DNA from: Kineococcus rhizosphaerae
Lineage (GTDB): Bacteria > Actinomycetota > Actinomycetes > Actinomycetales > Kineococcaceae
Assembly (NCBI RefSeq): GCF_003002055.1
Contig: NZ_PVZF01000014.1
Location: 1-64,000, forward strand
Length of the DNA stretch: 64,000 nucleotides
Reading direction: 5' to 3'
Shown here: positions 86 to 41,750 of the stretch, piece by piece
Layout of the letters: every line of letters starts with the position of its first letter
Numbering within the stretch: position 1 is the first letter of the stretch
Notes under the pieces: model-generated
Told to the model about the DNA's origin: nothing
Databases searched by the model: none
The model's input: the letters and a program-made list of their open reading frames with translations, nothing else
Program-made: the position numbers and the translations under genes

Positions 86-180
86 AACAGTCACTCAGCA
101 GGCATGAGGTCCTCGCTCACGTGGGGAGTGAGGGCGAGCGTAGTTGACACGGGAGCCGACCGTGACGTTGACTGGCCGGA

Positions 181-263
181 CCATCCAGAGCGGCCGAGAG
201 ACTTGGCTCGACGACGCCGCAGCAACCCCCCTCGAGGGTCGGTGCTTCCGCCAAGGACGATGG
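181..263 (+). promoter_or_regulatory. SAM-I (S-box) riboswitch 1
   Basis: The element has P1 strands CCATC (181-185) and GATGG (259-263). Between them is the S-box core: CAGAGCGGC, GAGAGACTTGGC, GCAGCAACC and the 3' GGTGCTTCCGCC block. The fold and core match the SAM-I class rather than SAM-IV. The Shine-Dalgarno GGAGG (262-266) overlaps the 3' strand of P1, so SAM binding would hide the ribosome site of the TTG start at 272. I see no terminator hairpin before the gene, so translational control is the likely mode. A TTGACA at 144-149 may be the -35 box. Confidence 0.9.
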
Positions 264-271
264 AGGACGCG

Positions 272-1648
272 TTGCCCGGCCCCAAGCCGTTGTTGCTCAA
301 CCTGTTCGAGATGAACTGCGTGAGCCACATCACTCACGGGCTGTGGCGGTTGCCCGGCAACCACCGCCACGAGTTCAACGACATCGGCTACTGGACGACG
401 CTGGCCCGGCTCGCCGAGGAGGCGCAGTTCGACGCCGTGTTCCTCGCCGACGTCCTCGGGGCGTACGACGTGTACCGCGACGGCCCGCAGACGGCGCTGC
501 GCGAGGGTCTGCAGATCCCCAGCAACGACCCGATGCTCGTGGTGCCCGCGATGGCCGCGGTGACCGAGCACCTCGGGTTCGGGGTGACCTCCTCCACCAG
601 CTACGAACCACCGTTCCCCTTCGCGCGCCGGATGAGCACGCTGGACCACCTCACGAAGGGGCGCGTCGGCTGGAACGTGGTGACGAGCTACCTGCCGAAC
701 GCGGCGCGCAACTTCGGTCTGTCCGGGCAGATCGAGCACGCCGAGCGGTACCGGATCGCGGACGAGTTCATGGAGGTCGTCTACAAGCTCTGGGAGGGTT
801 CCTGGGACGCCGACGCCGTGGTCGCCGACCGCGAGCGGGGCGTCGTCGTCGAACCGGACCGGGTGCGGCCGATCGACCACGAGGGCACCTGCTACCGGGT
901 CGCCGGCCCGCACCTGTCCTCCCCCTCCCGGCAGCGCACGCCGCTGGTCATCCAGGCGACGGCCTCGGCCGACGGGATCGAGTTCGCCGGCCGGCACGCC
1001 GAACTGGTCTTCACCGGCGGCCCGGACCACGCCACCGTCAAGCGCACGATCGCCGCGGTCCGCGCCGCGGCCGAACGCAACGGCCGTGACCCGCTGAGCG
1101 TGAAGTTCGTCGTGCAGGCCACGGTCGTCACGGGCCACACCGAGTCCGACGTCGTCGCCAAGCTCGCCGCGCACGCGCGGTACGACAGCCTCGAGGGCAG
1201 GCTCGCGCACGCCTCGCTGCCCTTCGACCCGCTGGCTCACCCCGCCGACCGCACGGTGGGCGACGCGCTGGCGCTCGAGGGCCGGCTGGACCACCCCGGC
1301 GCGGCGCACCTGCCGTGGCAGCGCAGCGTGGGTGACTTCACCGCCGCCCTCGCCCGCCGGGAACGCACGTTCGCGGCCGTCGGCACCCCCGACGCCGTCG
1401 TCGCCCAGATCGAGCACTGGCTCGACGACGTCGGCATCGACGGCATCAACCTCACCCAGCAGCACAGCTACGGGACCCTGCAGGACTTCGCCGAACTCGT
1501 CGGCCCGAGGTTGCGCGAGCGCGGCCGCCGGCCCGACGGGTACGTCCCGGGCCAGACGCTGCGCGAACGCCTCGGCGGCAGCGGCCCGCTGCTGCCCGAC
1601 GACCACACCGGCGCCCGGTTCCGCCGTGCCGCCGTCCCCACCCCCTGA
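272..1648 (+). CDS. FMNH2-dependent LLM monooxygenase, NtaA/SnaA/DszA family (organosulfur type)
   Basis: Predicted 458 aa flavin-dependent monooxygenase of the bacterial luciferase superfamily, NtaA/SnaA/DszA branch. These enzymes use reduced FMN and O2 to cleave C-N or C-S bonds; relatives act on sulfones and sulfonates. Family signatures are NDIGYW (36-41), FDAVFLADV (53-61), the TSSTSYEPPFPFAR stretch (106-119) and GWNVVTSY (133-140). TTG at 272 is chosen because GGAGG lies 5 nt upstream. The in-frame ATG at 260 lies inside riboswitch P1 and has no ribosome site. Control by a SAM riboswitch implies a role in releasing sulfur from an organic source, which is inference. No flavin reductase gene is seen nearby. 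Confidence 0.85.
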   Translation: MPGPKPLLLNLFEMNCVSHITHGLWRLPGNHRHEFNDIGYWTTLARLAEEAQFDAVFLADVLGAYDVYRDGPQTALREGLQIPSNDPMLVVPAMAAVTEHLGFGVTSSTSYEPPFPFARRMSTLDHLTKGRVGWNVVTSYLPNAARNFGLSGQIEHAERYRIADEFMEVVYKLWEGSWDADAVVADRERGVVVEPDRVRPIDHEGTCYRVAGPHLSSPSRQRTPLVIQATASADGIEFAGRHAELVFTGGPDHATVKRTIAAVRAAAERNGRDPLSVKFVVQATVVTGHTESDVVAKLAAHARYDSLEGRLAHASLPFDPLAHPADRTVGDALALEGRLDHPGAAHLPWQRSVGDFTAALARRERTFAAVGTPDAVVAQIEHWLDDVGIDGINLTQQHSYGTLQDFAELVGPRLRERGRRPDGYVPGQTLRERLGGSGPLLPDDHTGARFRRAAVPTP

Positions 1649-1664: not shown

Positions 1665-2708
1665 ATGCCCACCCCGTTCCACGTGTTCCTGGAGGTCGAC
1701 GGCGGAGGCTGGCACCCCGCCGCCTGGCGCCGTTCCCGCACCACCCCGGACCAGGTGTTCTCCCCGGCCCGCCTGAAGGAGTTCGCCGTCACCGCGCAGG
1801 CGCAGGGCCTGACCGGGCTGACGTTCGAGGACTCCACGGAGCCGAACCCGCGCAACCCCGTCGGTCACCTCGACGCGGTGCAGCGCGCGGCCTTCCTGGC
1901 CGGGACGACCGACGCGATCGGGCTGCTCCCCGTCGCCGCGACGACGTACTCCGAGCCGTTCCACGTGGCCGCGCAGATCGCCTCCCTGGACCACTCCAGC
2001 CGGGGCCGGGCGGGGTGGATCGCGACGACCTCGCCCGCCGCGGCCGCGCGCAGCGTGAACCTGCCCGTCGAGGCCGACCCCGCCGGCGAGCTGGCCGACG
2101 TGGTCCGCACCGTCCGCGCGCTGTGGGATTCCTGGGAGGACGACGCGGTGATCCGCGACGTCGCCACGGGCCGCTACGTCGACCGCGACCGGTTGCACTA
2201 CGTGGACGTCGAGACCGACTCCTTCTCCGTGAAGGGCCCGCTGACCGTCCCGCGGTCCCCGCAGGGCCAGTCCGTCGTCGCCGTCCACGCACGGGACCTG
2301 ACCCCGGGCACCGCGGCCGACGTCGTGTTCAGCGGGGACGAGCGGGCCCGCCGCACCGCGGGTGGGCCGCTCGTCGTGCTCGACGTCGAGGTCGCCCTCG
2401 ACACCGAGGCCCACCCGGCGGCGGACCGCCTCACGGCCCTGGACGCCGACGCGACGGCCCCGGACCGGGGCCGGATCCGCTGGTCGGGGTCGGGTGAAGG
2501 TTTCGCCCGGTACTTGAGCGACCTGGCCGGTTCCGTCGACGGCGTCCGGGTGCACGCCGCGGTCCTCGACGAGGACCTGCGCACGCTGCTGCGCACGACG
2601 TTCCCCGCCCTGCGCGTCGCCCGTCTGCTGCAGCCGCCGACCGCCGGGGCGACCCTGCGGTCCACGTTGGGCCTGGCCCGACCCGCCAACCAGTTCGCGA
2701 CGGCCTGA
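1665..2708 (+). CDS. LLM-class flavin-dependent oxidoreductase, short divergent member
   Basis: Predicted 347 aa, about 100 residues shorter than its two neighbours. It keeps the LLM opening and the ATTYSEPFHVAAQIASLDH and SRGRAGW segments that align with strand 4-5 of the monooxygenase barrel. The usual WNVVT block is degraded to GWIATT and the C-terminal insertion is reduced. The ATG at 1665 follows CCAGGAG. It lies 16 nt after the first monooxygenase and 12 nt before the third, so the three form one riboswitch-controlled operon. It may be a second substrate-specific monooxygenase or a partner subunit. The sequence alone does not say whether it still binds FMN. Confidence 0.75.
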   Translation: MPTPFHVFLEVDGGGWHPAAWRRSRTTPDQVFSPARLKEFAVTAQAQGLTGLTFEDSTEPNPRNPVGHLDAVQRAAFLAGTTDAIGLLPVAATTYSEPFHVAAQIASLDHSSRGRAGWIATTSPAAAARSVNLPVEADPAGELADVVRTVRALWDSWEDDAVIRDVATGRYVDRDRLHYVDVETDSFSVKGPLTVPRSPQGQSVVAVHARDLTPGTAADVVFSGDERARRTAGGPLVVLDVEVALDTEAHPAADRLTALDADATAPDRGRIRWSGSGEGFARYLSDLAGSVDGVRVHAAVLDEDLRTLLRTTFPALRVARLLQPPTAGATLRSTLGLARPANQFATA

Positions 2709-2720
2709 GGACCTTCCCCC

Positions 2721-4049
2721 ATGACTGACGACACGACCGAACTCCGCTACCCCGACGCCGTCGTCCGCTTCGGCGTGTTCTTCCAGGGCGTCAACCACAG
2801 CACCATCTGGTCGGACCCCCGCAGCGGTTCCCAACTGCACCACTCGACGTTCACGCAGCTGGCCCAGACCGCCGAACGCGGGTTGTTCGACGCGTTCTTC
2901 CTCGGCGAGGGCCTGCGGCTGCGCGAGCAGCGCGGCAAGATCCACGACCTCGACGTCGTGGGCCGTCCCGACGCCCTGACCGAGCTGGCGACGCTCGCGG
3001 GGCTCACCTCGAAGATCGGTCTGGTCGCCACCCAGAACACGACGTACAACGACCCGGCCGACCTCGCCCGCCGTCTCGCCTCGCTGGACGTGCTGTCCGG
3101 CGGCCGCGCCGCGTGGAACGTCGTGACGACCGACAACGCGTGGACGGGCGCGAACTTCCGCCGCGGTGGGTACCTCGACCACGCGGACCGGTACGAACGC
3201 GCCGAACGCTTCGTGAACCTGGCCAAGCGCGTGTGGGACAGCTGGAACGGCGACGGTTTCGACGCGGTCGCCTCCGACGACCGGTTCTTCGACGTCGAGT
3301 TCACCCCGACCGTGCCGCGCAGCGCGCAGCAGCACCCCGTCCTGTTCCAGGCCGGAGACTCCCCCGCGGGCCGCGACTTCGCCACCCGCACCGCGGACGT
3401 GATCTTCTCCCGGCACGGCACCGACCACGCCGACGCGCTCGCCTTCGCCGACGACATCCGGCGCCGGACCGTCGCGGCCGGCCGCCCCGAGGGGGACGTG
3501 CTCATCCTGCCGGGGACGCAGATCGTCGTGGCCGACACCGAGGCCGAGGTCGAGGAGAAGGCCCGCTGGGTCCTCGAGCAGCAGGTCACCCCCGCCACCG
3601 CGCTGTCCCTCGTGGGCCAGGTGTGGGGCGAGGACCTGTCCGGCTACGACCCCGACGGTCCGCTGCCGGCGCACGACCCGGTCATCGAGGACATCGACGG
3701 GACGCGCGGGGCCCACCGCGCGGGCGCGAACGCGCGGAGCCTGGCGCAGCAGTGGCGGGCGGTCGCCGAGGAGAACAAGTTCTCGCTGCGCGAACTGGTC
3801 CTGCACCACTCCTCCGAGCGCGGTTTCGCGGGGACCGCCTCGCAGCTGGCCGACGAACTCACCTTCTGGGTGCGTTCGGGCGCCAGCAACGGTTTCAACA
3901 TCACGCCGTACCTGGTCCCGAGCGGGCTGGACGACATCGTCGACCAGCTCGTCCCGGCGCTGCAAGACCGCGGCGCCTACCCGATCGAGTACGTCGGGGA
4001 CACCCTGCGCGAGCACCTCGGCCTGCGGGCGCCCCTCACCCGCCGCTGA
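2721..4049 (+). CDS. FMNH2-dependent LLM monooxygenase, NtaA/SnaA/DszA family
   Basis: Predicted 442 aa full-length member of the same family as the first gene of the operon. Visible signatures are FDAFFLGEGL (56-65), LVATQNTTYNDPADLARRLA (101-120) and AAWNVVTTDN (130-139). It is the last gene of the three-gene unit and is followed by a perfect hairpin. Two full-length paralogs plus one short copy behind one SAM riboswitch suggest several organosulfur substrates or successive oxidation steps. The exact substrate (sulfone, sulfonate or sulfide) cannot be read from the sequence. Confidence 0.85.
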   Translation: MTDDTTELRYPDAVVRFGVFFQGVNHSTIWSDPRSGSQLHHSTFTQLAQTAERGLFDAFFLGEGLRLREQRGKIHDLDVVGRPDALTELATLAGLTSKIGLVATQNTTYNDPADLARRLASLDVLSGGRAAWNVVTTDNAWTGANFRRGGYLDHADRYERAERFVNLAKRVWDSWNGDGFDAVASDDRFFDVEFTPTVPRSAQQHPVLFQAGDSPAGRDFATRTADVIFSRHGTDHADALAFADDIRRRTVAAGRPEGDVLILPGTQIVVADTEAEVEEKARWVLEQQVTPATALSLVGQVWGEDLSGYDPDGPLPAHDPVIEDIDGTRGAHRAGANARSLAQQWRAVAEENKFSLRELVLHHSSERGFAGTASQLADELTFWVRSGASNGFNITPYLVPSGLDDIVDQLVPALQDRGAYPIEYVGDTLREHLGLRAPLTRR

Positions 4050-5335: not shown

Positions 5336-5343
5336 CGAACCGT

Positions 5344-5432
5344 CCATCCAGAGCGACCGAGAGACCTGGCTCGTCGACGTCGCAGCAACCCCCCGACCCG
5401 TCGGGCGAGGGTGCTTCCGCCAGGACCGATGG
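5344..5432 (+). promoter_or_regulatory. SAM-I (S-box) riboswitch 2
   Basis: P1 is CCATC (5344-5348) with GATGG (5428-5432). The core CAGAGCGACC, GAGAGACCTGGCTCG, GCAGCAACC and GGTGCTTCCGCCAGGACC is intact. P3/P4 carry a variable CCCGACCCGTCGGG hairpin. A leader-peptide ATG follows 10 nt after P1. It controls the FAD/NAD(P)-binding protein and amino-acid transporter operon. Confidence 0.92.
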
Positions 5433-5442
5433 GAGTCGCGAG

Positions 5443-12874: not shown

Positions 12875-12885
12875 CTGGACGACCT

Positions 12886-12975
12886 CCATCGGTCCTGGCG
12901 GGAGCACCCGCGCCCGAGGTCGTCGGGGGGTTGCTGCGGCGTCGTCGAGCCAGGTCTCTCAGCCGCTCTGGATGG
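12886..12975 (-). promoter_or_regulatory. SAM-I (S-box) riboswitch 3
   Basis: On the minus strand the element reads CCATC (12975-12971) to GATGG (12890-12886). The core includes GCGGCTGAGAGACCTGGC, GACGACGCCGCAGCAACC and GGTGCTCCCGCCAGGACC, nearly identical to riboswitch 5. It lies upstream of the leader peptide and cbs. Ribosome-site masking of the leader peptide is the likely primary output. Confidence 0.92.
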
Positions 12976-13009
12976 TTTCCTCACCCACGGTGCCCTTCGG
13001 CACGGGGTT

Positions 13010-15836: not shown

Positions 15837-15843
15837 CGATCCT

Positions 15844-15932
15844 CCATCGTTCCTGGCGGAAGCACCCGCACCCGTTCGCACGGGGGGTTGCTGCGGCGTC
15901 GCGGAGCCAGGTCTCTCAGCCGCTCTTGATGG
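15844..15932 (-). promoter_or_regulatory. SAM-I (S-box) riboswitch 4
   Basis: On the minus strand P1 is CCATC (15932-15928) with GATCG-type closure CGATGG (15849-15844). The core GCGGCTGAGAGACCTGGC, GACGCCGCAGCAACC and GGTGCTTCCGCCAGGAAC is present. The P2b loop reads GCTCCGCGACGCC instead of GCTCGACGACGCC, a small deviation in an otherwise normal S-box. It controls the sulfurtransferase operon. Confidence 0.9.
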
Positions 15933-15966
15933 TTGCCCGGACACTGTCGCCCGACCGCGATCGGGT

Positions 15967-17534: not shown

Positions 17535-17541
17535 CGTCCCA

Positions 17542-17622
17542 CCATCCAGAGCGGCTGAGAGACCTGGCTCGACGACGCCGCAGCAACCTCCTTCGGGAAG
17601 GTGCTACCGCCAGGACCGATGG
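17542..17622 (+). promoter_or_regulatory. SAM-I (S-box) riboswitch 5
   Basis: P1 is CCATC (17542-17546) with GATGG (17618-17622). The core has GCGGCTGAGAGACCTGGC, GACGACGCCGCAGCAACC and GGTGCTACCGCCAGGACC; the P3 loop is the short CCTTCGGGAAGG type. GGAGG for the leader peptide directly overlaps the P1 3' strand. It controls the peptide-type ABC transporter and riboflavin kinase. Confidence 0.93.
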
Positions 17623-17632
17623 AGGAATCCCG

Positions 17633-17713
17633 GTGCGACCCACGCTGCTCCTCACGGCTCGTCGGCACGTCGACCTGTCCCGGCAGTCCAGCGCGCTCTC
17701 AACCCCACGCTGA
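17633..17713 (+). CDS. RRHVDL leader peptide without Cys codons, 26 aa
   Basis: A 26-codon frame starts at GTG 17633 and stops at TGA 17711. Its centre reads LTARRHVDLSRQSSAL, a textbook RRHVDL core. Unlike the leaders before cbs and the sulfurtransferase it has no Cys codon; Ser replaces the usual Cys after VDL. A hairpin pairing CCGCACCGGG with CCCGTGCGG (about 17776-17801) lies between it and the transporter start 119 nt downstream. Confidence 0.75.
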   Translation: MRPTLLLTARRHVDLSRQSSALSTPR

Positions 17714-17832: not shown

Positions 17833-19524
17833 ATGACCAGCAGCACCCCTGACCCCCTCCCGTCGGGTTCGACGCCCGGGGCGTTCCGACCCACCCGTCG
17901 CACGGTCTCCGCCGTCCTCGGCGCCGGCGCGGTGGGCACGATCCTCTCCGCCTGCGGGGGTGGCGCGTCGGGTTCGTCGGGCTCGACCCCGGCCGGGGCG
18001 AAGCAGGGCGGCGACATCGTCTTCCTCATCGACTCCCTCGGCGACACCTGGATCCCGAACAACAGCGCGATCTCAAGCTTCCAGGGGAACGTCTGGGGTC
18101 ACGTCACCGACAAGCTCGTCTACGTCGACGGCGAGGGGAAGGTGACGCCGTGGCTGGCCGAGAAGTGGGAGCAGAACGCGAACGCCACCGAGTTCACGCT
18201 GCACCTCAAGAGCGGGGTGACGTTCTCCGACGGCACGGCCCTGGACGCCGCCGCCGTCGTGGCGAACCTCGACTACTGGGCCAAGGGGCAGGCCGACAAG
18301 GGTGTGAACCCGATCGGCCTGTTCCCCAAGACGTACCTGCAGGCCTCCGCCGCGGACGCCTCCACCGTCGTCGTCGAGTTCAGCGCGCCGACGCTGGGGT
18401 TCATCCCCACCCTCGGGTACCACGGCTCCATCCTGATCTCCCCCAAGACGATCGCCCTGCCCGCCGAGGGCCAGGCGGACCTGTCGCAGGTCAGCGGGTC
18501 CGGGCCGTTCACGGTGAAGAGCTGGAAGGAGGGCGACGAGGTCGTCCTCGTCAAGCGCGCCGACTACGCGTGGGGCCCGCAGGCCCTCGGCAAGTCCGAC
18601 GCGGCGGCGCTCGACTCGATCACCTACAAGATCGTCAAGGAGAGCTCGCTGCGAACCGCGAGCCTGCAGTCGAACCAGGCCGACGCCGTCTTCAACGCCA
18701 CCCCGCAGGAGCTCGACGGGCTGAAGGAGGCCGGGTTCGAGGTCGCGACGCCCCGCTACCTCGGGTTCACCCACGGGTACCGCCTGAACACCTCGGTCGC
18801 GCCGTTCGACGACGTCGCGGTCCGGCAGGCGTTCCAGCACGCGATCGACCGCGACGAGATCCTGTCGACCGTCTACACCAGCGACTGGAAGAAGGCGCAG
18901 TCCTTCATCCAGTCCAACGTCCCCGAGGCCACCGACCACTCGGCGGAGTTCACCTACGACGCGGCGACGGCGAACTCGCTGCTCGAGCAGGCCGGGTGGG
19001 TGAAGGGCGCCGACGGCAAGCGCAGCAAGGGCGGCCGGCCGCTGTCGGTCACCCTGTTCCCGAACCCGTACCTCGTCACCTCGCAGGCCATCGACGAGCT
19101 CGTGGCCCAGCAGCTCGGCAAGGTCGGGTTCACCGTGGACCTGCAGACCTTCGACGTCGTCACCTACGGTCAGCGGGTCAGCGGGAACAAGACGCTGTCG
19201 AACTACGAGGTCACCCGCAGCTTCATCGACGTCGGCACCGTCGCGAGCATCCTGACCAGCGCCAACAAGGGCGAGGACTGGTTCGGGCTCGGCGAGAGCG
19301 ACCAGACGCTGAACCACCTGCGCGACGCCGTCGCCGGCGCCGTCGACGAGGACACCCGCCGGACGTCGGTCGACCAGTTGCAGCAGTACGTCCTCGAGCA
19401 GGGGCTGTTCATCCCCCTGGAGCAGATCGTGCAGCGCATCTACGCCAACCGCTCCGACCTCAAGGGCGTGACCTACAACGGCGTCGCCTACGCGAACTAC
19501 TACGCCGCCCACCTCGAGGCCTGA
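17833..19524 (+). CDS. peptide/nickel-type ABC transporter substrate-binding lipoprotein (SBP_bac_5)
   Basis: Predicted 563 aa. After a 40-residue signal with lipobox ILSAC the lipidated Cys is residue 41. The family-5 fold is seen in WLAEKWEQNANATEFTLHLK, GVTFSDGTALDAAAV, DVAVRQAFQHAIDRDEIL and TASLQSNQADAVF. These proteins bind di- or oligopeptides, nickel complexes, glutathione or opines. S-box control suggests a sulfur-bearing cargo. It heads an operon of two permeases, a double ATPase and a riboflavin kinase. Confidence 0.9.
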   Translation: MTSSTPDPLPSGSTPGAFRPTRRTVSAVLGAGAVGTILSACGGGASGSSGSTPAGAKQGGDIVFLIDSLGDTWIPNNSAISSFQGNVWGHVTDKLVYVDGEGKVTPWLAEKWEQNANATEFTLHLKSGVTFSDGTALDAAAVVANLDYWAKGQADKGVNPIGLFPKTYLQASAADASTVVVEFSAPTLGFIPTLGYHGSILISPKTIALPAEGQADLSQVSGSGPFTVKSWKEGDEVVLVKRADYAWGPQALGKSDAAALDSITYKIVKESSLRTASLQSNQADAVFNATPQELDGLKEAGFEVATPRYLGFTHGYRLNTSVAPFDDVAVRQAFQHAIDRDEILSTVYTSDWKKAQSFIQSNVPEATDHSAEFTYDAATANSLLEQAGWVKGADGKRSKGGRPLSVTLFPNPYLVTSQAIDELVAQQLGKVGFTVDLQTFDVVTYGQRVSGNKTLSNYEVTRSFIDVGTVASILTSANKGEDWFGLGESDQTLNHLRDAVAGAVDEDTRRTSVDQLQQYVLEQGLFIPLEQIVQRIYANRSDLKGVTYNGVAYANYYAAHLEA

Positions 19525-19535
19525 GGAGGGCACGC

Positions 19536-20513
19536 ATGAGGGGTTACGCGGGTTTCGCGGCACGACGCGTCGGCCAGGCCGTCGTCGTCGTCCTGCTGGC
19601 GTACGTCGCGACGTTCGTCGTCATCAGCGTGCTGCCCGGGGACCCGGTCACGAACACGCTGCGCAACCCCGAGAACGGGTTCACCGAGGACGAGATCGCG
19701 CGCATCGTCTCCTACTACGGGCTCGACCAGCCCGTGGTCGTCCAGCTGTGGGAGGCGCTGTCGCGGTTCGTCGTCGGCGACCTCGGCGTGTCGCTGCGCA
19801 GCAACCGGCCGGTCTCGCAGTCGATCGCCGAGGTCCTGCCCTCGACGCTGACGCTGGCCGGCGGCGCCCTCGCGGTCGCGATCGTGCTCGCCGCCGTCGT
19901 CGCGGCGGCCACCCAGTTCCTCCCCCGGGGCGCGGGGCAGGGGGTGGCCCGCTCGCTGCCGTCGCTGTTCCTGTCGGTCCCGAACTTCGTCATCGGTCTC
20001 GTCCTCATCCACGTGTTCGCGCTGAAGCTCGGGCTGTTCCGCGTCATCGACCCCGACTCGGCCTGGGCGACGGCCTTCGCCGCCCTCGCCCTGGGGATCC
20101 CGGTGTCGGCGCAGCTGGCGGAGGTGCTCGTCGCCGGGCTCGACCACGAGTCGCGCCAGGAGTACGCCTCGGTGGCGCGCTCGCGCGGGCTGGGCCGGAC
20201 CCGGCTGCTGCTGCGCCACCTCCTGCGCCCCAGCTCGCTGCCGGTCGTCACGGTCCTGGCCCTGACCGTCGGTGAGCTGCTCGGCGGTGCCCTCATCACC
20301 GAGACGATCTTCGGCCGCGCCGGCATCGGCAGCCTCGTGGAGTCGTCGGTGACGACGCAGGACCTGCCCGTCCTGCAGGCCGTGGTCTCCCTCGCCGCCG
20401 TGGTGTTCGTGGTGGTCAACCTCCTGGCCGACCTCGTGTACCCGCTGCTGGACCCGCGCGTGCGCACGCCCCGGACGACCACCGCCCGACCGGTGGAGGT
20501 GAGCGTCGCGTGA
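19536..20513 (+). CDS. peptide-type ABC transporter permease (DppB type)
   Basis: Predicted 325 aa membrane protein with about six helices. The N-terminus AARRVGQAVVVVLLAYVATF and the ISVLPGDP motif are typical of DppB/OppB. The EAA loop is around EYASVARSRGLGRTRLLLRH. ATG 19536 has GAGGAG upstream and begins 11 nt after the binding-protein stop. It pairs with the next permease to form the channel. Confidence 0.9.
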   Translation: MRGYAGFAARRVGQAVVVVLLAYVATFVVISVLPGDPVTNTLRNPENGFTEDEIARIVSYYGLDQPVVVQLWEALSRFVVGDLGVSLRSNRPVSQSIAEVLPSTLTLAGGALAVAIVLAAVVAAATQFLPRGAGQGVARSLPSLFLSVPNFVIGLVLIHVFALKLGLFRVIDPDSAWATAFAALALGIPVSAQLAEVLVAGLDHESRQEYASVARSRGLGRTRLLLRHLLRPSSLPVVTVLALTVGELLGGALITETIFGRAGIGSLVESSVTTQDLPVLQAVVSLAAVVFVVVNLLADLVYPLLDPRVRTPRTTTARPVEVSVA

Positions 20514-21358
20514 GCGGGACCATCACGGCCTCGCGCGCCCAGGCGCCGGTCACCACCGTCCGCTCGGCGTTCCGGGTCCCCCCGACCGTCGTGCTGTCGT
20601 TCGTCGTCCTGGCGGTCGTCGTCGCCTGGTCGCTGGCCCCGGGGTTCTTCACCCACCAGGACCCGGTGAACGGGGTGACGTCGCAGAAGCTGCTCGGCCC
20701 CAGCGCCGCGCACTGGTTCGGCACCGACCACCTGGGCCGCGACGAGTTCTCCCGCGTCGTGCACGGGACGGCGAGCTCGGTCACGAGCGCGCTCGTGGCG
20801 GTCGGCATCGGGGTCGTCGTCGGTGGCCTCGTGGGTCTGCTGGCGGGTTTCCTCGGCGGTCTGGTGGACGTCGTGCTGGCCCGCGTCGTCGACGTCCTGC
20901 TGGCCATCCCCAGCTTCCTGCTGGCCGTCATCGTCGTGAGCTCGCTGGGTTTCCAGACGATCAACGCGGCCGTCGCGACGGGGATCTCGGCCGTCGCGGT
21001 GTTCGCCCGCGTCATGCGCTCGGAGGTGCTCAAGACCCGCCGGTCGGTGTTCGTCGAGGCGTCGTTCCTGCAGGGCGGGTCGCGCGGGCACGTCCTGCTG
21101 CGGCACGTGCTGCCGAACGCCTCTCGCACCGTGCTGGCCCTGGCGGTCCTGCAGTTCGGGTTGTCCATCCTGGTCATCGCCGGGCTGGCGTTCCTCGGCT
21201 ACGGCGACCCGCCGCCGGCCTCCGACTGGGGCCTGCTCGTGTCCGCGGGCAAGGACTACCCGACGGCCCCGTGGCTCGTGTACGCGCCCGCGGCCGTGAC
21301 CATCGCCACCGTCCTGTCCGTGAACCGCATCAGCCGCTGGCTGCGCGGGACCGACTGA
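20510..21358 (+). CDS. peptide-type ABC transporter permease (DppC type)
   Basis: Predicted 282 aa with about six helices. HWFGTDHLGRDEFSRVVHG is the DppC/OppC signature after the first helix, and the EAA loop is SVFVEASFLQGGSRGHVLLRH. The GTG start overlaps the DppB-type stop by 4 nt. It completes the membrane part of the S-box-controlled importer. Confidence 0.9.
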   Translation: MSGTITASRAQAPVTTVRSAFRVPPTVVLSFVVLAVVVAWSLAPGFFTHQDPVNGVTSQKLLGPSAAHWFGTDHLGRDEFSRVVHGTASSVTSALVAVGIGVVVGGLVGLLAGFLGGLVDVVLARVVDVLLAIPSFLLAVIVVSSLGFQTINAAVATGISAVAVFARVMRSEVLKTRRSVFVEASFLQGGSRGHVLLRHVLPNASRTVLALAVLQFGLSILVIAGLAFLGYGDPPPASDWGLLVSAGKDYPTAPWLVYAPAAVTIATVLSVNRISRWLRGTD

Positions 21359-21368
21359 GGAGCCCGTC

Positions 21369-22973
21369 GTGAACGAACCCCTGTTGCGGGTGCAGGACCT
21401 GTCGGTCGCCTACCACCGCACCCCGGTGGTCTCGGGCGTCTCCTTCGAGATCCCGCCCGGCGGCAGCCTGGCCCTCATCGGGGAGTCGGGGTCGGGCAAG
21501 TCCACCATCGCCCGCTCGGTCCTGCGGCTGCTCCCCCGGCACACCGCCCGGGCGACGGGCACGGTCCAGGTGCAGGGCACCGACGTGCTGCGGATCCCCG
21601 AACGCCGGTTCCGGCCGCTGCGCGGGCGGACGCTGGGCTTCGTCCCGCAGGACCCCGCGACCGCGCTCAACGCCGTGCGCCGCATCGGGTCCCAGGCCCA
21701 GGAGGCCGCCGCGCTGACCGGCGAGCGCGACCGCCGCGCGCGTCGTCACGCCGTCCTCGACGTCTTCGAGCGCGTGGGCCTGCCCGATCCCGAGCGCGTC
21801 TACGACGCCTACCCCCACGAGCTGTCCGGCGGGATGCTGCAACGCGTCCTCATCGGGCTCACCGTGCTGCCCCGGCCCGCTCTCCTCGTCGCCGACGAAC
21901 CCACCAGCGCCCTCGACGTGACCATCCAGCGGCGCGTGCTGGACCTGCTGACGGACCTGCGCACCGACCTCGGCATCGGGCTGCTGCTCATCACGCACGA
22001 CCTCGCGATCGCCGCCGAGCGCGCCGAGCGGATCGTCGTGCTGCGCGACGGCCGCGTCGAGGAGGCCGGGTCGACGACCGAGGTGTTCACGGCCCCCCGG
22101 TCGCAGTACGCCCGGGACCTGCAGGCCGACGTCCCCGCGCTGAACCCCGACCGGTACCGGCGGGGGACCACCGTGCGCCAGGCGCCCACCCAGCTCGAAC
22201 TGCGCGGCGTCACCAAGACGTTCGCCACCGGGACCCGGGCCCTCGACGACGTGTCGTTCGCCGTGACCGCCGGGACCACCCACGCGCTCGTGGGGGAATC
22301 GGGGTCCGGCAAGACGACGGCGGTCCGCGTCCTGCTGGGCCTGGAAGAGCCCGAGGCCGGGCAGGTCCTCGTCGCCGGCGAGGTCGTGGCGGGCCGCTCG
22401 CACGCCGAGCTGCGCGCCACCCGGCGGCACCTGCAGCTCGTCTACCAGAACCCGTTCACGTCGCTGGACCCGACCTGGCGGCTGGACGCGATCGTGCGCG
22501 AACCCCTCGACCGGTACGGGATCGGCGACCGCGCCGAACGCGACCGCCGCGTGGCCGAGGCCCTGGGGGCCGTCGGTCTCGACGAGCACCTGTGGCGCCG
22601 CCGGCCCACGGCCCTGTCCGGTGGCCAGCGCCAGCGGGTGGCCATCGCCCGGTCACTGGTGCTGCGCCCCGACGTCGTCGTCCTGGACGAACCCACGTCG
22701 GCGCTCGACGTCAGCGTCCAGGCGGACATCGTCGAGGTGCTCGTGAGGCTGCAGCGCGAGCTCGGGCTGACGTACCTGTTCGTCTCCCACGACCTCGCCC
22801 TCGTCCGGCAGTTCGCCGACACCGTCACCGTGCTGCGCCACGGACGGGTGGTCGAGGAGGGGACCGTCGAGCAGGTGCTGACCGCACCGCGCGAGGAGTA
22901 CAGCAGGACGCTCGTGGCAGCGATCCCCCGCCCCGCTCTTCCCACCGAGCCCGTTCTCGAACCCCGGAGGTAG
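21369..22973 (+). CDS. fused double ATPase of peptide-type ABC transporter (DppD-DppF fusion)
   Basis: Predicted 534 aa with two complete nucleotide-binding domains. Walker A motifs are GESGSGKST (38-46) and GESGSGKTT (about 308-316); signatures are LSGGMLQR and LSGGQRQR; Walker B motifs are LLVADEP and VVVLDEP. The two halves correspond to DppD and DppF fused in one chain, common in actinobacteria. GTG 21369 follows GAGGAG. It energises the two adjacent permeases, and the riboflavin kinase starts 6 nt after its stop. Confidence 0.92.
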   Translation: MNEPLLRVQDLSVAYHRTPVVSGVSFEIPPGGSLALIGESGSGKSTIARSVLRLLPRHTARATGTVQVQGTDVLRIPERRFRPLRGRTLGFVPQDPATALNAVRRIGSQAQEAAALTGERDRRARRHAVLDVFERVGLPDPERVYDAYPHELSGGMLQRVLIGLTVLPRPALLVADEPTSALDVTIQRRVLDLLTDLRTDLGIGLLLITHDLAIAAERAERIVVLRDGRVEEAGSTTEVFTAPRSQYARDLQADVPALNPDRYRRGTTVRQAPTQLELRGVTKTFATGTRALDDVSFAVTAGTTHALVGESGSGKTTAVRVLLGLEEPEAGQVLVAGEVVAGRSHAELRATRRHLQLVYQNPFTSLDPTWRLDAIVREPLDRYGIGDRAERDRRVAEALGAVGLDEHLWRRRPTALSGGQRQRVAIARSLVLRPDVVVLDEPTSALDVSVQADIVEVLVRLQRELGLTYLFVSHDLALVRQFADTVTVLRHGRVVEEGTVEQVLTAPREEYSRTLVAAIPRPALPTEPVLEPRR

Positions 22974-22979
22974 CAGCCC

Positions 22980-23411
22980 GTGACCCTGCGCGTTCCCGGT
23001 CCGCGGCCCCGAACCGACCTGCCCACCGTGCTCGTGCGCGGTGTCGTCGAGCACGGCGACGCCCGTGGCCGCGCACTGGGTTTCCCGACGGCCAACCTCC
23101 CGATCGTCGGCACGGGCCCCGCCGACGGCGTCTGGGCCGGCACCGTCCAGGTCGACCCCGACCAGGACGGCCCCGTGCACGTCGCGGCCGTCTCCGTCGG
23201 CCGCCGCCCCACCTACTACGCCGACGGGGTCCGGCTGCTCGAGGCGTTCCTGCTCGACGTCACCCTCGACCTGTACGACCACGAGGTCCTCGTGACGTTG
23301 CACCGGCACCTGCGCCCGCAGCTGGCGTTCTCCGGGTCGGACGAGCTCGTGGAGCAGATGCACCGCGACGTCGCCGCGACCCGCGAGTGGGCCGCCGCGA
23401 CGGTCCGCTGA
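22980..23411 (+). CDS. stand-alone riboflavin kinase domain protein
   Basis: Predicted 143 aa. It shows the riboflavin kinase motif VEHGDARGRALGFPTANL (23-40) and later SVGRRPTYYADG and LLDVTLDLYDHEVLV, which match the C-terminal half of bifunctional RibF. The FMN adenylyltransferase half is absent, so it would make FMN from riboflavin and ATP without converting it to FAD. GTG 22980 is 6 nt after the ABC ATPase stop, placing it in the S-box operon. That fits a need for FMN by the LLM monooxygenases at 272-4049. The housekeeping RibF should be elsewhere in the genome. Confidence 0.82.
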   Translation: MTLRVPGPRPRTDLPTVLVRGVVEHGDARGRALGFPTANLPIVGTGPADGVWAGTVQVDPDQDGPVHVAAVSVGRRPTYYADGVRLLEAFLLDVTLDLYDHEVLVTLHRHLRPQLAFSGSDELVEQMHRDVAATREWAAATVR

Positions 23412-23425
23412 CGCGCCTCGCGGGG

Positions 23426-23480
23426 CCGGCACGTTGCCTCCCCGGTCCCGATCACCGGGACCGGGGAGGCAACGTGCCGG
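23426..23480. terminator. perfect 24-bp hairpin after the sulfur transporter operon
   Basis: Arms 23426-23449 and 23457-23480 are exactly complementary over 24 bp around a 7-nt GATCACC loop. It lies 14 nt after the riboflavin kinase stop and would end the operon. No U-tract follows. The GATCACC apex is shared with the hairpin at 4073-4135. Confidence 0.7.
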
Positions 23481-41458: not shown

Positions 41459-41750
41459 GTCCCCAGTGTCCTCCACGCTCGAGGGAGCCGACGACCAGGG
41501 CGCCAGCTGTCCCCCGGACGCCGTACTCACGTGGCGTCCACGGGTGTCAACAACGCGTCGGCCCGGGACCATCCCGGCGGACGTGGCGAAAAGCGCACGG
41601 CCGCGACCCTTGCCCCGGCCCGGTTCGTCGTGCATGATCCGGGGACCGCAGCGACGCGACCGTTCACGGTGGCCGAGCCCGGGACAACTGAAGACCCCAT
41701 TCCACGACGGATCGTCCGGCACGTACCTGCCGGTGGAAGGACACACGACG

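Follow-up and report, generated by a model that had tools for sequence, protein, structure and literature searches.

A stand-alone riboflavin kinase gene in a SAM riboswitch operon of Kineococcus rhizosphaerae and its proposed role in FMN supply for organosulfur utilization

FMN supply is commonly regarded as a housekeeping function governed by RibF and the FMN riboswitch. Bacillus subtilis also possesses RibR, which carries an extra C-terminal domain for RNA binding. RibR is a monofunctional flavokinase distinct from the bifunctional enzyme, and its gene is one of 12 in a sulfur transcription unit; RibR is co-expressed with genes for sulfur uptake and degradation, responds to the sulfur source, being induced on methionine or taurine, and also interferes with the function of FMN riboswitches (PMC7693651). 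Because of this precedent, a tie between flavin supply and sulfur is a known principle. Rhizobium etli pRetIE4771e carries an operon encoding, in this order, a solute-binding protein (SBP), two permeases, an ATPase, two luciferase-like monooxygenases (LLMs), an acyl-CoA dehydrogenase-like protein, and the FMN reductase MsuE. Here, we describe a riboflavin kinase gene found in a 64-kb stretch of Kineococcus rhizosphaerae DNA (contig NZ_PVZF01000014.1, positions 1 to 64,000; hereafter, the window). The original prediction, made from the letters of the window, had claimed that the gene encodes only the kinase half of RibF, that it is part of an S-box-controlled importer operon, and that it supplies FMN to sulfur monooxygenases.

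The kinase gene and its operon

The operon and the elements flanking it are as follows.

17539-17625, forward strand: SAM-I riboswitch aptamer (S box) of the kinase operon (RF00162, 64.1 bits, full length 1-108)
17633-17713, forward strand: short leader peptide MRPTLLLTARRHVDLSRQSSALSTPR (NCBIfam NF042934 'putative leader peptide', 27.9 bits, cut-off 27)
17833-19524, forward strand: ABC importer solute-binding lipoprotein, SBP_bac_5 (PF00496, 236.5 bits)
19536-20513, forward strand: ABC importer permease 1 (PF00528, PF19300)
20510-21358, forward strand: ABC importer permease 2 (PF00528)
21369-22973, forward strand: ABC importer ATPase with two ATP-binding domains (PF00005 in two stretches, 189.4 bits)
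22980-23411, forward strand: stand-alone riboflavin kinase, 143 aa (PF01687, alignments, and structure match)
23426-23480, forward strand: perfect 25-bp inverted repeat with a 5-nt loop, 3' of the kinase gene, present as a single copy in the window

The kinase reading frame starts with GTG behind a GGAGG Shine-Dalgarno sequence, 6 nt downstream of the ATPase stop codon, and is the last gene of the operon, whose end is probably marked by the inverted repeat. A Pfam search of the window matched the protein to the Flavokinase family (PF01687) with 104.9 bits against a cut-off of 19.6, over residues 18-137 of 143 and profile positions 6-123 of 124, so that only six residues follow the kinase domain. 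In the same search, the FAD-synthetase domain was absent from the 143-aa reading frame, so the protein is not a bifunctional RibF, just as had been predicted. Alignments showed that the GFPTAN motif and the catalytic Glu are present; the catalytic Thr37, Asn39, and Glu88 correspond to Thr208, Asn210, and Glu268 in the enzyme of Corynebacterium ammoniagenes (numbers counted from the alignment) and are unchanged across 28 relatives. An AlphaFold2 model of the kinase (pLDDT 86.9) matched the riboflavin kinase structures 5a89/5a88, 1nb0, and 1n06, with Foldseek E-values of about 1e-8 to 1e-7 for 5a89, 1n06, and 1nb0. The gene is under purifying selection, with a dN/dS of 0.18 against its orthologue in another Kineococcus genome (G001). 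An FAD synthetase and a pseudogene were both ruled out as identities, because the adenylyltransferase domain is missing, the frame is intact, and the catalytic residues are kept. The identity of the protein as a riboflavin kinase and its wiring to SAM are well supported.

The claim of an S-box-controlled importer operon also held. The aptamer at 17539-17625 exceeds the gathering threshold of 44.4 bits and has the top score among the 12 SAM-I riboswitches of the genome. The 3' strand of its P1 stem, ATGGAGG, contains a Shine-Dalgarno sequence, and the leader-peptide frame begins 7 nt past the aptamer, with a counterpart in G001 (L150). The same arrangement was found in all 17 SAM-I aptamers examined (the five of the window and those of L026-L031, L150, L155, and L157): the P1 3' strand includes a Shine-Dalgarno-like stretch (ATGGAGG/ATGGGAG or similar), and a structural gene or short peptide has its start codon 1-11 nt further on. 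The leader peptides after SAM-I elements are of HVDL/VVDLC type, mostly with Cys, which is lacking in the kinase-operon peptides (SSALSTPR, SSALPPRR). We propose no terminator model, because the secondary structure of the S-box leader was not more stable than that of shuffled sequences; minimum-energy folds of the SAM-IV leaders described below were uninformative.

The SBP of the window is related to TIGR04028 (KPN_01854), of which it is not a member (296.4 bits, under the cut-off of 468.5), and is 68.6% identical to that of the R. etli operon, with which it shares the SBP-permease-permease-ATPase order. Behind the ATPase gene, the R. etli operon continues with LLM genes and later msuE, whereas the window operon continues with the riboflavin kinase. 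By analogy, the R. etli relative supports the view that the ABC transporter of the window is an organosulfur importer.

SAM riboswitches and flavin genes in the window and genome

The window contains five SAM-I aptamers (178-266, 5341-5435, 12883-12978, 15841-15935, and 17539-17625), and the first of them precedes a trio of LLM genes.

178-266, forward strand: SAM-I riboswitch of the LLM gene trio (RF00162, 52.9 bits)
242-1648, forward strand: LLM monooxygenase of the NtaA/DmoA family, candidate FMNH2 consumer (TIGR03860, 447.9 bits, cut-off 279.7)
1665-2708, forward strand: diverged LLM-like protein (TIGR03860, 151.2 bits, under the cut-off)
2721-4049, forward strand: LLM monooxygenase of the NtaA/DmoA family, candidate FMNH2 consumer (TIGR03860, 350 bits)

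The true start of the first of these genes is probably the TTG at 272. These are the monooxygenase genes closest to the kinase; they lie 19 kb off in a separate transcription unit, and no LLM gene was found inside the kinase operon of this genome or of G001. Since SAM-I riboswitches precede both the LLM trio and the importer-kinase operon, the importer, the kinase, and the candidate FMN consumers belong to one SAM regulon. An msiK RNA (RF01747, 59.2 bits) was also detected at 41689-41748 on the forward strand of the window.

Family searches of the 5.6-Mb genome gave seven PF01687 genes, namely, six stand-alone kinases and one full-length ribF; a check for the latter had been suggested with the original prediction, and the gene is present at C1:785297, beside rpsO/pnp. 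The same searches gave 67 LLM genes, four flavin reductase genes of the PF01613 family and another truncated at the end of a contig, and 12 SAM-I, five SAM-IV, and one FMN riboswitch, the last located before the riboflavin synthesis genes. No SAM riboswitch was found near the housekeeping ribF or beside the other five stand-alone kinases of the genome.

Stand-alone kinases, SAM control, and FMN-using monooxygenases in other genomes

Stand-alone kinases occur in five of 11 Kineococcus genomes, the source genome included. The other six keep SAM riboswitches and have no stand-alone kinase, and hence the kinase is not essential. In G001, the kinase is the last gene of a SAM-I operon of the same layout. 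In G006, G003, and G010, a SAM-IV aptamer lies upstream of a stand-alone kinase (93.9, 94.2, and 74.6 bits, respectively), ending 30-41 nt before the start codon, and each of these kinases is a single gene without an importer. The probability of a SAM-IV element occurring at that spot by chance is about 3e-5 per genome. Thus, two riboswitch classes put the kinase under SAM: SAM-I in the source genome and G001, and SAM-IV in the other three. In G003, the ATPase gene of the orthologous importer operon (SBP 80% identical) is not followed by a kinase gene; the kinase is located on another contig with its own SAM-IV. In the phylogenetic tree, the window kinase groups with that of G001 (support 100/97) and the pair is joined by G010 (100/98). 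The kinases of G006 and G003, also under SAM-IV, branch at other places in the clade. Given these scattered positions, SAM control either arose on more than one occasion or underwent several losses or rewirings. We take this cross-species pattern of SAM-I and SAM-IV as the strongest evidence that the SAM link has been selected and is not a by-product of operon position. Among eight loci with stand-alone kinases outside Kineococcus, no SAM riboswitch was found beside the kinase.

Two further observations were made in these genomes. Locus L153 has two SAM-IV aptamers of equal score (938-1048, reverse strand, and 1237-1347, forward strand), which lie about 190 nt apart on opposite strands. G003 has another kinase reading frame, incomplete and of low similarity, at a contig end (89 aa; L156, 3147-3416, reverse strand); its GFPTAN part lies beyond the available sequence.

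Stand-alone kinases are also linked to the genes of FMN-using monooxygenases. In the source genome, four of the six have an LLM or flavin reductase gene no more than 500 bp away, a zone that covers 2.6% of the genome (binomial p 6e-6). Across genomes, an LLM or PF01613-like reductase gene was found within 9.9 kb at 19 of 31 stand-alone kinase loci versus 0 of 74 ribF loci, a comparison whose statistics are indicative only: there is relatedness among the loci, two of them are duplicates or incomplete, and the genomes sampled for the two groups differ in part. The test behind this comparison used 19/29. The 9.9-kb scan missed the annotated LLM and flavin reductase genes of two Phaeobacter plasmid loci. 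At one locus (L024), the GTG of the kinase overlaps the stop codon of an LLM gene, and in Agromyces the kinase gene adjoins a flavin reductase gene. The plasmid-borne kinases of Arthrobacter sp. 68b, A. dokdonellae, Phaeobacter, and Agrobacterium are all within LLM gene neighbourhoods. Two alphaproteobacterial kinases branch outside the actinobacterial stand-alone clade, on long branches whose exact placement is unsure, which suggests that the stand-alone kinases of the two groups may be convergent.

The stand-alone kinases include a second subtype (L021, 11128-11787, forward strand; L152, 9460-10131, reverse strand; L035, 9929-10621, forward strand; L036, 9917-10624, forward strand) in which about 80 aa at the C-terminus form a conserved tail. 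The tail has no Pfam match and resembles a TetR-type helix-turn-helix (VP..YLRW.YP); these proteins are possibly fusions of the kinase to a regulator. The Phaeobacter plasmid clusters with an LLM, a flavin reductase, and a stand-alone kinase (L165, 586-1278; L169, 585-1277) also carry an extra ribB for riboflavin synthesis, which hints at a dedicated flavin supply.

Proposed function and comparison with known systems

We consider it likely that the kinase is an extra source of FMN made at low SAM for the FMNH2-dependent organosulfur monooxygenases of the same SAM regulon. The operon would be expressed under these conditions because the P1 stem of its SAM-I aptamer includes the Shine-Dalgarno sequence of the leader peptide: at low SAM, that is, under methionine or sulfur limitation, the 3' strand of P1 would be freed, and importer and kinase would be made together. 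The importer would then bring a sulfur compound into the cell, and the kinase, as a monofunctional enzyme, is predicted to convert riboflavin and ATP to FMN and ADP; with no adenylyltransferase domain, it could not carry FMN on to FAD. The FMN raised in this way would be turned into FMNH2 by reductases and used by the luciferase-like NtaA/DmoA-type monooxygenases of the SAM regulon, which would release sulfur from the imported organosulfur compounds, while the housekeeping bifunctional RibF would remain in place. This reading, in essence the cofactor supply put forward in the original prediction, is favoured by the SAM-IV elements before related kinases, by the clustering of kinase genes with LLM and flavin reductase genes, and by the LLM-msuE importer operon of Rhizobium. 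Counting against it, the operon itself carries no monooxygenase gene, six Kineococcus genomes do without a stand-alone kinase, the other five such kinases of the source genome have no SAM riboswitch beside them, with one of the five (L021) having no LLM gene nearby either, and LLM genes are abundant in this genome. In a wider reading that we hold to be slightly on the probable side, more than one event would have put two SAM riboswitch classes before a riboflavin kinase gene with a dedicated role, so that sulfur sensing directly sets FMN supply. Kinase-only proteins would, in this reading, have become accessories of FMNH2-dependent LLM systems repeatedly, and in part convergently, in Actinobacteria and Alphaproteobacteria, one extra subtype bearing a conserved HTH-like C-terminal tail.

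The position of the kinase in an importer operon would also fit a transporter for riboflavin or a flavin-like compound, with the kinase trapping its substrate by phosphorylation for flavin salvage or catabolism and the sulfur control being incidental; riboflavin-catabolism clusters with a kinase and an LLM riboflavin lyase exist. Such trapping is unlikely here, as the importer has a peptide/nickel-type binding protein, the related importer operon of Rhizobium comes with LLM genes and msuE and not with a kinase, the orthologous importer operon of G003 has no kinase behind it, and SAM-IV governs kinases that have no importer at all in G006, G003, and G010. The recurrence of the SAM link with two riboswitch classes and differing gene orders also argues against a redundant paralogue carried along in a sulfur gene cluster without a special role. 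The presence of ribF and the patchy distribution of stand-alone kinases would agree with such a paralogue, but the purifying selection seen against G001 and the strong tendency of these kinases to lie near LLM and flavin reductase genes make it improbable.

The six residues past the kinase domain, which leave no room for an extra C-terminal domain, and the retained catalytic residues speak against a protein that serves mainly to boost riboflavin synthesis under sulfur limitation through the FMN riboswitch instead of producing FMN. That role would be in line with RibR, a flavokinase of a sulfur operon that acts on FMN riboswitches (PMC7693651), and with the single FMN riboswitch upstream of the riboflavin synthesis genes, but we judge it very unlikely for the window kinase. 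A RibR-type regulator was rejected on account of the missing C-terminal extension.

If the proposed FMN source is correct, FMN supply in this organism appears as a regulated, dedicated part of organosulfur scavenging under a SAM riboswitch, which may explain how FMN demand is covered in cells that encode dozens of LLM monooxygenases (67 genes in this genome). In practice, two-component desulfurization or degradation enzymes could be given a stand-alone kinase as a co-expression partner. In the literature searched, coverage of which was partial so that novelty is not proven, no paper mentioned both a SAM riboswitch and riboflavin kinase, and none joined riboflavin kinase, luciferase-like monooxygenase, and operon; the terms "riboflavin kinase", "luciferase", and "monooxygenase" are all absent from the main text of a 2013 riboswitch regulon survey.

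Compared with the kinase module of the C. ammoniagenes FAD synthetase (5a88, 5a89; 2x0k), the window kinase shares the fold and the catalytic Thr, Asn, and Glu but lacks the FAD-synthetase half, and its clade is separate from actinobacterial ribF. It falls in the same clade as the stand-alone kinases of Arthrobacter sp. 68b p2MP, A. dokdonellae pDCT5, and an Agromyces MAG, which have LLM and flavin reductase genes near the kinase; unlike the window operon, these Arthrobacter and Agromyces clusters appear catabolic and not sulfur-related, and a search of the Agromyces cluster found no SAM riboswitch. Like RibR, to which we liken it by description and not by sequence alignment, it is a monofunctional flavokinase separate from the bifunctional RibF. 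RibR acts on FMN riboswitches, whereas the window kinase has no extension past the kinase domain, is under SAM riboswitches, and belongs to another phylum. As far as the literature searched shows, the new elements are that two classes of SAM riboswitch exert the control, that the kinase has no further domain, that the phylum is a different one, and that there is a general link between stand-alone kinases and LLM systems.
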